This document shows positions 54,439 through 58,982 of a stretch of DNA of 64,000 bases, in pieces. Below the pieces are notes generated by a model, which saw only the letters and a program-made list of their open reading frames with translations, was not told the origin of the DNA and searched no databases. This stretch comes from Chloroherpeton thalassium ATCC 35110 (GTDB taxonomy: Bacteria > Bacteroidota > Chlorobiia > Chlorobiales > Chloroherpetonaceae), in the NCBI RefSeq assembly GCF_000020525.1, contig NC_011026.1, positions 2,834,001 to 2,898,000 on the forward strand, read 5' to 3'. Both the position numbers and the translations under genes were made by a program. How positions within the stretch are numbered: the first letter of the stretch is position 1; each line of letters begins with the position of its first letter.

Positions 54439-55125
54439 ATGTTAATTGAAAATCGTGCGCTTTCGCTTTTTCATGTCCTTCGTGAGCCGCTTCAAAAAAC
54501 AGGCGAAACATCCCCACTTCTTTTGCTTTTACATGGTTATGGCAGCAATGAACAAGATTTGATTCAACTTGCGCCGGATTTGGACGATCGATTTTTGGTC
54601 ATCAGTCCACGCGCGCCAGAAATTTTAGGGCCGGGCATGTTTGGATGGTTTCCGATTGAATTTCACGCTGACGGCATTACCGTCAACCCTGAATTGGCAA
54701 TGCTTGCGCAACAAAAACTGCTGGATTTTTTTGACGAACTTTTGGAAACGTATCCGGTCGATCATTCAAAAATATTTGTCATGGGATTTAGTCAGGGCGC
54801 GGTTATGAGCTATCTTGCCGCTTTTTCACAGCCGGAAAAAGTAGCAGGCATTGTTGCTATGAGCGGACAGATTCCACCGGACGACTTTTTTCAAACGATC
54901 GATACGGCCAAACTCGCTGAACTTCCGGTTCTTACGGTGCACGGACTTTACGACGAAGTGCTACCGATAGAAAAAGGCCGTGAAAGTCGCAAAAAACTGG
55001 AAAGTTTGCCGGTCAGACTCACTTACAAAGAATATCCAATGGGACATCAAGTTTCAGTAGAAAGCCTGAACGACATAGACGCGTGGTTGAAAGCAATTTT
55101 GAAGCGGAGAAAGGCGTGGCTATAA
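54439..55125 (+). CDS. Phospholipase/carboxylesterase-type alpha/beta hydrolase
   Basis: 228 residues, no signal peptide. Oxyanion-hole region LLLLHGYGSNEQDL, nucleophile Ser in GFSQGAVMS, acid Asp in HGLYDEVLP and His in PMGHQVS form the catalytic triad of the carboxylesterase 2 family. Likely a cytoplasmic esterase or thioesterase. Its stop overlaps the stop of the convergent YjbH-like gene by 6 bp. Confidence 0.92.
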   Translation: MLIENRALSLFHVLREPLQKTGETSPLLLLLHGYGSNEQDLIQLAPDLDDRFLVISPRAPEILGPGMFGWFPIEFHADGITVNPELAMLAQQKLLDFFDELLETYPVDHSKIFVMGFSQGAVMSYLAAFSQPEKVAGIVAMSGQIPPDDFFQTIDTAKLAELPVLTVHGLYDEVLPIEKGRESRKKLESLPVRLTYKEYPMGHQVSVESLNDIDAWLKAILKRRKAWL

Positions 55126-55836
55126 AAAAATCTTCAAGGCAAAACTACCCGAGAAGTCTTTCAGATCCTGCAACGCACCGAGAAGCTCTATGTGCTGAAA
55201 AAGGCAAAGCTGCCCACCAAGATTGATGACATTGCTATCATGCTCAAGGATGAGCGCAAGTTCAGGAATATGAGATGGCGCAACAGCTATGCCAGCTAAA
55301 AAGCCGTCAAACTGGTTATGCGGCATGGCATCAAAGGCATACCCAATGGTTAATCCTACATTGTGTTCATTTGTGATGAAATGTTTGGTAGCCACAGCAT
55401 AAAGAGTACCAAAGAACTGGTTGCCTTTACTTACAGATGTTACGATATCGTGTCCGCCAATGACAAAAGCGGGGATTTTTTCCGATTCTTTGAGAAGCCT
55501 CACGCGAGCCGAAACCATCCGGTCAACCTGAAAAGATTGACCGGGACGATTTATAGGGCCGCTGTTTCGAAACCCTAACTCAAGAAAAGGCAAAAAGGTA
55601 AGATTTGCATAATACGCCAATACATCATATCGGTTATATGAGTGCATCACCGCTGCATGATGCTTATCAAGATAGCTAACCCCAAAAATGAGCGTGCCAT
55701 CAGGCTGCATATCAGCAGACGGAATGTTTAGCAATCCCGTCATGCCTGTAAGCGAATGCCCAATACATGTTCCTGAGAATAACAGGGACAGAAATATTAT
55801 GAACGCAAACTGTTTACTCACCGCCACCACCTTCAT
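55120..55836 (-). CDS. YjbH N-terminal-domain outer-membrane protein
   Basis: 238 residues from ATG 55836 (MKVVAVSKQFAFIIFLSLLF). Signal peptide, then the YjbH-family opening GMTGLLNIPSADMQPDGTLIFG and alternating strands of a beta barrel. It matches only the first third or so of a full YjbH (which is about 700 residues). YjbH-type proteins export exopolysaccharide across the outer membrane. The start overlaps the upstream lipoprotein gene by 23 bp. A protein resembling the missing C-terminal part is encoded at 57193, so the family appears split in this operon. Confidence 0.75.
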   Translation of the reverse strand: MKVVAVSKQFAFIIFLSLLFSGTCIGHSLTGMTGLLNIPSADMQPDGTLIFGVSYLDKHHAAVMHSYNRYDVLAYYANLTFLPFLELGFRNSGPINRPGQSFQVDRMVSARVRLLKESEKIPAFVIGGHDIVTSVSKGNQFFGTLYAVATKHFITNEHNVGLTIGYAFDAMPHNQFDGFLAGIAVAPSHIPELALILEHDSNVINLGGQLCLFQHIELLGALQDLKDFSGSFALKIFL

Positions 55837-57196
55837 GACAATCCTTCCAACCAATCTGCTGTTTATAACACCTACGCTCCCATATTACATTAGGAACCCG
55901 CCTACCACTGGGCAAGATAACCCATTCGTTAACCCGTTTGACTTCTACCCATCGTGCATACACAGGTTTACAGCTAGGATCAGGTGCAGGTGATAGATAA
56001 GGGTTGGGGACGGTGGTGCAACCCGGAATAGTAATAACAGGAGCAACTCTAGCAATAGCCGCAGGAGGCCCTTGAATAAACTTAGTTATAGGCTCAAGCA
56101 CAAGTGCAAGCCAATTAACAAAGCGCATATGGCAAATCCATTCTCGAGAATCAATAACTGATTGAGCGTTATCCGCAACATCCTCAGAGAATGAATAGCA
56201 TCTCTTTAAGTCAAAATCAGGTCTCCCTGATAAGAGTGAATTTTGCTCTACCACATTTCTTAGCCATTGATGGTTATAGCCATCGGGAATGCCATCAGGA
56301 TAGACTAATGTGTCACTAATACAAATGTTAGAAGAACTCTGATCAATGTCATCTTTTTCTGAAGAATCGTATTCCTCATCGTAATCACCACTTATGCCTA
56401 CAGAGTATATTCCAAATCTTGTGATATTTGCAGTAGCTGATGTTCCATTTTGCTGAACAATAGCTTCATATCCAGAATCCTCCCACAAGTTATTCTCAGT
56501 ATCAAATCTCAGCAGTTTTAATTTCGTCCCGGGAGACATTTCTAAAGGGAGCGGTTGCGTAAGCTCAACTTCTTCATTTAGTTGTATTTCATAAGGAAGC
56601 AGTGCGACTGTAGAAGTGTTAAGTAATCCTAACGTCTCAGTTGGTGATAGTTCAGGGACATTATTTCCGTAAAGAGGGGTCACTGAAATATTTTCTTCTC
56701 CATCAAGAGCCTCTTTTGGAATAACAAGCTCTATTATGTCAGAAGAATTTAAGGCTTCAGGGTTATCATATGTTTGAATATTCCCACCATTACTACCAAT
56801 AGTCACCGCCGCCGCTGATGGATTTAAAGCAATGTATGAGTAGTTCTCAATCTCATCCTTATCAAATATCTCCATATTTTGTATATATCCACCAGCGGAC
56901 GCCCGTATTTCATTAGCATCGGTTAGCAATTCTTCATCGATGTAAAAAGTATAAGACCCATCGCTACTTGTAACACATGAATCATTTAGTAACAACACTT
57001 TTGCGTAAGGAATCCCTACACTCGTCTCATAATCATATACCTTTCCATTAATTTCAATGGTATTAGCATCACTCGGCGCTACAGTATTTTTTCCATCAGA
57101 GCCGCCGCATCCATGAATTGAGGTAAAGAAACCGGCGAGTACCATAACCATGAGTACCGCAATGATGTTTTTCGGCTTGAAATAGTTTTTTTTCAT
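55814..57196 (-). CDS. Lipoprotein with carboxypeptidase-regulatory-like and ZU5-like domains
   Basis: 460 residues from ATG 57196, whose ATGA overlaps the upstream stop. Signal segment with a lipobox-like IHGCGG (about 30). Residues 45-130 are a carboxypeptidase-regulatory-like beta domain (INGKVYDYETSVGIPYAKVL), followed by a ZU5-like region (IELVIPKEALDGEENISVTP). The C-terminal 190 residues contain six Cys and a Gly-rich end and are unrecognised. Middle gene of the three-gene YjbH-like operon; probably an outer-membrane-anchored partner. Confidence 0.75.
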   Translation of the reverse strand: MKKNYFKPKNIIAVLMVMVLAGFFTSIHGCGGSDGKNTVAPSDANTIEINGKVYDYETSVGIPYAKVLLLNDSCVTSSDGSYTFYIDEELLTDANEIRASAGGYIQNMEIFDKDEIENYSYIALNPSAAAVTIGSNGGNIQTYDNPEALNSSDIIELVIPKEALDGEENISVTPLYGNNVPELSPTETLGLLNTSTVALLPYEIQLNEEVELTQPLPLEMSPGTKLKLLRFDTENNLWEDSGYEAIVQQNGTSATANITRFGIYSVGISGDYDEEYDSSEKDDIDQSSSNICISDTLVYPDGIPDGYNHQWLRNVVEQNSLLSGRPDFDLKRCYSFSEDVADNAQSVIDSREWICHMRFVNWLALVLEPITKFIQGPPAAIARVAPVITIPGCTTVPNPYLSPAPDPSCKPVYARWVEVKRVNEWVILPSGRRVPNVIWERRCYKQQIGWKDCHEGGGGE

Positions 57197-58527
57197 AGTT
57201 CCGATCTTTTGAGTTGGAGAAGTTGATTCTTGATAAATAGAGGATTCCAATAATGTATATAACGATTTTCATTAGGTCTACTTTCGTAGTATTGACCCAG
57301 CGTAAATTCTGTTCCGGCATTGTATTCCCAATCAAAATGTCTGGGCGTTCGAATTCTGAGGAGCGAAGGATACCCGTAACTTGAAATGGGAAGCGGGACC
57401 GCAAAATGAAAACCACCGTTCATCTCACCACCTGAGCGAATCGCGTAAAACCCGATGACCGTTTGATTGAAATATCGTGAAATGTCGGCGCGAACGGCAT
57501 GGTCACCATACAGGAACTGCCCAAACCCAAGTTCAAACCGCAAGTTATAAATAGGTTGAAAATGCCGTGCTTTGAGAAACCATGTTGGCGTACGAATCGC
57601 TGTGGTATGCCATGTTCTTTGGGTAAACCACGAGCGCCCCGTTATACCAGCCTGAAGCTGAATGTCTAACCAGTCGCTGATGATCGGCCAAAGCATTTTA
57701 ACATCGCCACCATAACGATGCGCATTGAAGTTGCCTATCGTCACTTCTGCGAAAAGCGTTTCGAGCAACCGAAAAGATTGGCTAATGGAGACAAACCCGG
57801 GTCGCGCAAGATCGCCTTCTCCATAATAGTCTTCATAGTCATTGACAATGGGAATGATAAACTGGCCAGTGAACATCATTCCTTTCCACAGAGAAAATTC
57901 CCATGCCGGCGCTGCATTGACCTGTACTTCATAAAGCTGGCTTAAACGCACATTACGGGCTTTGAACTGCGGATACAAAACAATATCGGATTTAAAAGTA
58001 TGCGGATTGTGAGAAGCCACATCTCTGAGTTGTTGCCAAGACGGCGAAGCAGAGTAAGAGACCTTGAGCACGGACGCCACCACATTTTCGTTAGAGCCTT
58101 CATGCCTAAACTCATACCAGATATTTCTGGGGACGCACACTCGCGCCTGGGGTATATTTCGCTTAAGTACATACAATTCGATTAAGCTTCCTGATGGACT
58201 CATATTGGCAAGGATATCAAGTGCGTGTGCAATGCCAACGACATGAGACCTATATTGGTTACTTTCGACGCTTGCATAGATATAATCACCTTGGCGGATC
58301 ACACGAACATTTTCAAACCCATGACCCACCAAAGCCATACAAACACGATTGCTTATCTCCTCAGCATGAAGTTTTTGCGTCCCAATAAAAGAAAGCATAA
58401 CAACATGGATACAGGCAAGCAGGACGACAAGAGTCAATTGCCTTGTATAAAAGCGCAGAGGAATCAGCCAAATATGGGAGAAACATCCTTGAGCGATGCC
58501 CTTCTGAAATATCAAATCAAAACTCAT
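57193..58527 (-). CDS. YjbH C-terminal-like outer-membrane protein
   Basis: 444 residues from ATG 58527, with AAAGGAT seven bases upstream. A hydrophobic segment at about 35-55 (signal/anchor, ending near LHAEE), a mixed region, then beta-rich sequence: LRFELGFGQFLYGDHAVRAD, ISRYFNQTVIGFYAI and HFAVPLPISSYGYPSLL, matching from memory the GDW---SR-F-NG--vG and S-PL motifs of the YjbH C-terminal barrel. First gene of the operon; the N-terminal YjbH part is the third gene. Order and split are unusual. Confidence 0.68.
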   Translation of the reverse strand: MSFDLIFQKGIAQGCFSHIWLIPLRFYTRQLTLVVLLACIHVVMLSFIGTQKLHAEEISNRVCMALVGHGFENVRVIRQGDYIYASVESNQYRSHVVGIAHALDILANMSPSGSLIELYVLKRNIPQARVCVPRNIWYEFRHEGSNENVVASVLKVSYSASPSWQQLRDVASHNPHTFKSDIVLYPQFKARNVRLSQLYEVQVNAAPAWEFSLWKGMMFTGQFIIPIVNDYEDYYGEGDLARPGFVSISQSFRLLETLFAEVTIGNFNAHRYGGDVKMLWPIISDWLDIQLQAGITGRSWFTQRTWHTTAIRTPTWFLKARHFQPIYNLRFELGFGQFLYGDHAVRADISRYFNQTVIGFYAIRSGGEMNGGFHFAVPLPISSYGYPSLLRIRTPRHFDWEYNAGTEFTLGQYYESRPNENRYIHYWNPLFIKNQLLQLKRSEL

Positions 58528-58533
58528 GAACAA

Positions 58534-58957: not shown

Positions 58958-58982
58958 AAAAATAGGCCGGAAAACCCGGCCT
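58956..58982 (-). terminator. Intrinsic terminator of the hem oxidase gene
   Basis: AGGCCGG (58964-58970) with CCGGCCT (58976-58982), 5-nt loop; plus-strand A-run 58956-58962 gives the U-tract on minus-strand RNA. Confidence 0.88.

Follow-up and report, generated by a model that had tools for sequence, protein, structure and literature searches.

The outer-membrane proteins GfcD and YjbH of Escherichia coli (Pfam PF06082) are described as belonging to one of the most widespread families of outer-membrane barrels, with an activity that is still unproven (PMC11494523, PMC8592465). PMC11494523 depicts GfcD as an N-terminal barrel of 12 strands, a middle domain in the periplasm and a C-terminal barrel of 13 strands with a C-terminal plug, and GfcB, GfcC and GfcD are reported to bind one another (PMC8592465). 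The same two sources tie YjbH/GfcD to polysaccharide in E. coli, propose that GfcD exports polysaccharide joined to lipid or protein, and propose a lateral exit from the GfcD C-terminal barrel, also by simulation (PMC8592465, PMC11494523). Here we analysed a window of 64,000 nucleotides (the whole stretch of DNA, to which all coordinates refer) from Chloroherpeton thalassium ATCC 35110, contig NC_011026.1. An operon on its minus strand (58533-55120) encodes, by overlapping genes, the C-terminal half of YjbH/GfcD (C-half), a lipoprotein and the N-terminal half (N-half); first and third denote transcription order, not coordinate order. The lipoprotein ends in a short His-Gly tail that is conserved at related loci, a new finding that is absent from the first-pass annotation of this DNA.

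That annotation had likened the first gene to the YjbH C-terminal barrel and the third to its N-terminal domain, and both proteins align to the YjbH profile. Of the 658 positions of PF06082, the C-half matched 276-594 (E 7.4e-11) and the N-half 6-132 (E 4.1e-14); the two matches score 52.8 and 42 bits, above the curated cut-off of 24 bits, and are the only ones in the whole genome. Alignment to E. coli YjbH with hhalign placed the C-half on residues 313-654 (probability 96.9) and the N-half on residues 29-250 (probability 98.7). AlphaFold2 models of both proteins adopt the folds of the corresponding GfcD barrels. The C-half model, based on 48 relatives, has a mean predicted local distance difference test score (pLDDT) of 89.5 and shows 13 long strands in the barrel, as well as a four-residue strand (392-395) and a short hairpin strand (307-310). 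Its strand count agrees with that of the GfcD C-terminal barrel, for which a lateral opening between the first and the last strand is proposed. The N-half model (31 relatives, pLDDT 84.1) is a 12-stranded barrel whose only helices are residues 7-25, the signal peptide, and 64-68. The first gene encodes more than the barrel that had been proposed, since GfcD's periplasmic middle domain is also present in it. The models thus contain the same three domains as GfcD/YjbH and would place the cut at a domain boundary, between the N-terminal barrel and the middle domain. Unlike E. coli GfcD/YjbH, they are divided between two proteins, with the C-terminal part encoded first and a lipoprotein gene in between. 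As a single polypeptide is a defining feature of GfcD/YjbH, we do not file the set as GfcD, and no NCBIfam family scored above its cut-off for any of the three proteins.

The starts and stops overlap, as had also been noted earlier. The likely lipoprotein start shares an ATGA with the C-half stop, an arrangement that may couple translation of the two genes. The likely ATG of the N-half is preceded by GGAAGG and falls within the last codons of the lipoprotein, so that the two genes overlap by 23 bases. Terminator-like hairpins numbered six in the region against 3.9 in shuffled sequences, and one of them, upstream of the C-half, suggests that the operon is transcribed apart from the preceding oxidoreductase gene. 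Promoter-like matches in the region were also fewer than shuffled sequences gave. The features of the locus are listed below.

Features of the split-barrel operon in the C. thalassium window (nucleotide positions in the window unless residues are indicated)
Feature	Position	Strand	Remarks
C-half open reading frame	58533..57193	minus	446 residues; first gene of the operon
Lipoprotein open reading frame	57250..55814	minus	478 residues; likely ATG start at 57196, giving about 460 residues
N-half open reading frame	55854..55120	minus	244 residues; likely ATG start at 55836; third gene of the operon
ATGA shared by the C-half stop and the likely start of the lipoprotein	57196-57193	minus	read from the sequence
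Tail codons H-E-G-G-G-G-E and stop	55814..55837	minus	likely N-half start codon (55836-55834) lies inside
Terminator-like hairpin	58964..58982	minus	between upstream oxidoreductase gene and operon; pattern match only
Convergent esterase gene	54439-55125	plus	shares six bases (55120-55125) with the N-half gene, stop over stop
C-half protein, signal peptide			AlphaFold2 model
C-half protein, periplasmic alpha/beta domain	residues 74-170		AlphaFold2 model
C-half protein, 13-stranded outer-membrane barrel	residues 182-406		AlphaFold2 model
C-half protein, C-terminal helix	residues 431-440		AlphaFold2 model

Because the open frames are of half length only, the locus could be a YjbH gene broken by mutation and rearrangement, with its pieces decaying. 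This is highly improbable: a second genome of the family (G001, locus L121) carries the same three intact frames in the same order, their products being 54%, 38% and 56% identical to those of the window, stand-alone halves occur in many lineages, and the predicted folds are confident. The same recurrence excludes chance, and chance similarity was rejected.

Comparison with solved structures placed the N-half nearest to FapF, the 12-stranded polypeptide transporter of Pseudomonas functional amyloid (Z 17.2, root-mean-square deviation 3.2, 188 aligned residues, about 13% identity). The likeness of GfcD's N-terminal part to FapF has already been published (PMC9603273). Unlike in FapF, the signal peptide of the N-half is not followed by a helical domain in the periplasm, and the neighbours of the N-half gene are the lipoprotein and C-half genes; no amyloid gene was recognised near the operon in the gene list of the window. 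For the C-half, plain Foldseek matches were weak (best E 5.6e-04, template-modelling score below 0.3). A second structure comparison, in which models of more than 400 residues can be under-matched, gave Z values of 13.9 for OmpG, 13.4 for CymA, 13.0 for PelB, 10.9 for PgaA and 10.7 for BcsC. The C-half barrel is thus related in fold to the exopolysaccharide barrels PelB, PgaA and BcsC. Those proteins carry a TPR scaffold (named in PMC9603273), whereas the C-half has a small periplasmic domain of alpha/beta type together with its 13 strands.

The division into two proteins extends far beyond this genome. Among 41 relatives, PF06082 was found in three and both halves in two, C. thalassium and the second genome of its family. 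Of 296 genomes sampled across the Bacteroidota, YjbH was matched in 30 and none had a single frame with both halves, two frames of more than 500 residues giving weak YjbH matches below the cut-off. The C-half profile was found in 14 of the 296 genomes. An N-half hit was present in 13 of these 14, compared with 16 of the remaining 282; the Fisher test applied to this co-occurrence ignores shared ancestry. When one order was taken together with C. thalassium, leaving out a fragment hit (G309), strong N-half hits (E<1e-40) were present in 12 of 16 genomes with a C-half and in none of 19 without, although a weak hit (1.8e-4) was seen in one of these 19.

Gene order was compared in 75 C-half loci, which remained of 95 fetched after dropping 11 same-contig duplicates and nine without a C-half. 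These are loci and not independent genomes: L118/L119 and L128/L132 share genomes, and L139/L140 are two strains of B. fragilis. With C for the C-half, L for the lipoprotein, N for the N-half and b for a small barrel, the orders were C L (22 loci), N C L (14), L N C (8), C L b N (7), L b N C (4), C L b (4), C alone (4), C with a convergent N (3), C L N (2) and C N (2), plus five singletons. The C L N order of the window recurs in the second genome of the family and in G185 (L046), and the C L b N form belongs to seven Bacteroidia-type loci. The reversed split around a lipoprotein that the first-pass annotation had described is therefore real and not specific to this locus, being found as C L N or C L b N in 9 of the 75. 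In the Bacteroidota sampled here, split halves are the norm, and the window's gene order is one of several.

A scan of named records gave 55 loci, which include Chloroherpetonaceae, Melioribacter and other Ignavibacteria, Parabacteroides, Bacteroides (B. fragilis, clarus, gallinarum, fluxus and rodentium), Prevotella, KSB1 and Poribacteria. At two of them, L148 and L167, a single frame may hold N-half and C-half together. At L148 (977-2512, Parabacteroides sp. RGIG9024), N-half and C-half profile matches lie in one frame of 511 residues; this is too short for both halves in full, and it seems to be a fusion that has lost the middle domain. At L167 (Poribacteria, 686 residues), both halves are suggested by length and the C-half alone scored. 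Two further loci show duplication. In L137 (4297-10097, Bacteroides sp. MO.1_1), two N-half copies flank one C-half and lipoprotein, the first copy consisting of two overlapping frames; in G077:C128:2986-3539, pieces of a second C-half and lipoprotein with internal stops are apparently a decaying copy.

In B. thetaiotaomicron, the neighbouring genes BT0292 and BT0293 are both listed as YjbH domain-containing (PMC10434189), as would be expected if annotation already contained a split pair. Near OPX genes, C-terminal barrels of GfcD or YjbH that stand alone have also been counted (2 and 3; PMC9603273). An account of YjbH pairs that are split and accompanied by a tailed lipoprotein was not found in our literature search, which did not take in Solan 2021 (PNAS), a paper that is said to have defined multi-barrel proteins.

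The lipoprotein of the window has a signal peptide ending in the lipobox ..FFTSIHGC, with an unusual histidine at -2. It had been described as ZU5-like and as lying between the two halves; its position and lipobox bear out the second point and the lipoprotein assignment. Pfam gave no ZU5 match in the window protein itself, which matched CarbopepD_reg_2 (PF13715) below the cut-off (E 0.017), and weak ZU5 and CarboxypepD_reg matches in two relatives, so that the ZU5 likeness has indirect support. A sequence search of the PDB with this protein returned no match. Like GfcB/YjbF, it is an outer-membrane lipoprotein encoded with a barrel by overlapping genes; unlike them, it has a CarboxypepD/ZU5-like body and the His-Gly tail. 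It had no YjbF match in Pfam, a search confined to this protein and not extended to the rest of the genome, and so the set differs from the gfcABCD and yjbEFGH operons in its lipoprotein, as it also does in GfcC (see below).

The last residues of the window lipoprotein are CHEGGGGE, and those of relatives include PHNQGGITQGPF, SCHNQGNGG, GCHDQGSGGTGG, DCHNSGGS and ASQHSGGKV. We defined the tail as a His followed, after at most two residues, by Gly-Gly, or as His, one of D, N, E or Q, one of Q, E or S, and Gly, near the C-terminal end. The pattern was loosened once after misses; its strict form, together with a lipobox, was found at 55 of 75 loci and the loosened form at 63. A lipoprotein adjoins the C-half in 64 of the 75 loci, 63 of which show the tail; some of the 64 were picked by the tail itself, and the unbiased figure is that of the family defined by BLAST homology alone, in which 49 of 51 members carry the loosened pattern and one of the two tail-less members is interrupted by Ns. 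An alignment of 47 full-length members shows the His of the tail conserved in 98%, its Gly in 100% and the lipobox Cys in 100%. Moreover, the tail is present in 7 of 7 members of a second, Ala-rich lipoprotein family for which no relation to the first was detected. Bodies differ between loci (beta-sandwich, Ala-rich and others) and the tail is constant, its His lying 4 to 15, most often 7, residues from the C-terminus. Among 607 other genes the tail appeared in nine, eight of which are further split-barrel neighbours (that of L122 on the opposite strand) and one a chance match. No tailed lipoprotein was seen on the operon strand in 12 of the 75 loci, five of one divergent family (f28) and L111, L122, L136, L138, L155, L167 and L171. 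E. coli YjbF and YjbE have no such tail; the end of YjbE is rich in Gly and Thr and lacks histidine, and homology to the tail is not claimed.

Since the likely N-half start lies inside the tail codons in the window, and Gln-Gly-Gly codons can spell a Shine-Dalgarno site, the last codons might be fixed by a ribosome-binding site or by the next start codon. We give almost no credence to such a nucleotide artefact. The His is encoded by CAT in 35 and CAC in 28 tails and the Gly by all four codons, Shine-Dalgarno-like letters occur in 21 of 63 tails only, the next same-strand gene is often more than 80 bases away, and the tail is retained at loci where no N-half follows. The varied codons and the scarcity of Shine-Dalgarno-like letters indicate selection on the protein and not on a ribosome site.

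A general sorting tag was also considered and is disfavoured. In 1.264 Mb (38%) of the C. thalassium genome, 4 of 1006 frames end in the tail and the window lipoprotein is the only lipoprotein among them; the lipobox pattern used for this count marked 150 lipoprotein-like frames and missed the window lipoprotein itself.

At loci where the two halves are separate, the N-half lies among polysaccharide genes in 11 of 12 cases, a strong tie to genes for surface polysaccharide. A PF02397 sugar transferase adjoins it in six (L039, L043, L194, L195, L197 and L198); L047 contains a Wzc-type gene, L048 and L199 a UDP-sugar dehydrogenase, L200 a GT4 transferase and L196 a nucleotidyl transferase; the twelfth locus (L038) is a 3.9-kb contig with no polysaccharide gene. 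Among the 75 C-half loci, 10 have Wzc-type genes, 9 have Wza-type genes and 7 have WecG-type genes, the types being assigned by Pfam for L128 and L140 and by BLAST cluster for the rest. In Parabacteroides goldsteinii the genes stand in the row N-half, C-half, lipoprotein, Wza, Wzc. Single-nucleotide polymorphisms in a putative porin, there called YbjH, were reported for a B. uniformis line whose phage tropism had switched (PMC8143477); this would suit a role at the surface, which that study did not test as such.

The first-pass annotation had suggested that the three genes may encode a new multi-subunit outer-membrane exporter, perhaps for a slime or capsule, a reading that is supported in part. 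We lean, with caution, towards a three-subunit outer-membrane complex that works like the GfcD/YjbH double barrel taken apart. The C-half, with its 13-stranded barrel and a periplasmic domain acting as a gate, would form the path of a polysaccharide or lipid anchor, and the N-half would contribute the 12-stranded FapF-like barrel. The lipoprotein, its lipid in the outer membrane and its variable beta-sandwich body facing the periplasm, would tether and gate both barrels in place of GfcB/GfcC, and its His-Gly tail could dock in a barrel as a plug or an assembly key. The cargo would most likely be a Wzx/Wzy-type surface polysaccharide, for export or anchoring. We infer the physical association of the three proteins, the docking of the tail, the cargo and its direction; the split itself, the two predicted folds, the overlap of the genes, the co-occurrence of the halves and the tail are what the analysis shows.

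Several observations weigh against this proposal. Five loci of the divergent family f28 lack the tail. Moreover, no N-half hit was obtained in 4 of the 16 C-half genomes of the one-order comparison, so that the C-half may act alone. The top fold match of the C-half is a plain porin, OmpG, and the fold alone therefore shows no function. A GfcC homologue (PF06251) is absent from the C. thalassium genome in a search whose E. coli control matched. In the window, the operon has no polysaccharide gene next to it, and the genome's only OPX gene is about 430 kb distant; Ignavibacterial C-half/lipoprotein pairs adjoin YajQ and pyrimidine genes (named by eye) and not polysaccharide genes. The porin-like fold, the lack of adjoining polysaccharide genes in the window and these housekeeping neighbours would also suit a general envelope module, for porin or lipid traffic, that was recruited to polysaccharide clusters in some lineages. 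This seems doubtful to us given the surroundings of the separate N-halves, the Wza- and Wzc-type genes at C-half loci and the ties of YjbH/GfcD to polysaccharide in E. coli (PMC8592465, PMC11494523).

A constant tail on variable bodies would suit a docking peptide, and a bolder alternative is a client peptide for the FapF-like barrel. In that case the lipoprotein would itself be exported, its tail threaded through the N-half, and at the surface it would hold polysaccharide leaving via the C-half. The nearest fold of the N-half is indeed that of a polypeptide transporter, variable bodies with a constant tail resemble cargo with a transport signal, and GfcD has been suggested to export protein-joined polysaccharide (PMC8592465). 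Nevertheless, we consider it unlikely, as the tail is found on one lipoprotein per locus and on no other in the part of the genome covered, unlike a general sorting tag, and as the Ignavibacterial tailed lipoprotein is linked to the C-half and not to the N-half. In its widest form, the split GfcD-type machine would export two things across Bacteroidota, the N-half threading the lipoprotein tail out and the lipoprotein anchoring or accepting the polysaccharide of the C-half; this version we hold to be quite improbable.

Because the split is natural, each barrel can be deleted, tagged and purified separately, as is impossible with the fused protein, and the tail offers a single-residue handle, one histidine, on how barrels and lipoprotein meet. 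Gut Bacteroides and Parabacteroides have the set; these bacteria are genetically tractable, and their polysaccharide coats shape contacts with host and phage.

Further genes accompany the set at some loci. In Bacteroides fragilis Q1F2 (L140, 8240-10081), a GldL-type gene (GldL_N, E 1.6e-26) and a GldM-type gene (GldM domains, E 6.4e-32) were found; GldL and GldM form the proton motor of type 9 secretion. Such genes lie directly downstream of the split barrels and lipoprotein, near polysaccharide genes, in L140, L139, L142 and L143, and L141 has the GldM-type gene only. The small outer-membrane barrel gene, with a motif like NPSLDYW, stands near the lipoprotein in 17 of the 75 C-half loci (for example L124 7510-8250, L146 7538-8269, L168 7590-8285 and L035 7000-7734) and is absent from the window operon. 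Finally, a 360-residue barrel with an OmpA domain lies downstream of the C-half/lipoprotein pair in 14 of the 75 loci, including the Ignavibacterial L040, L042 and L044.

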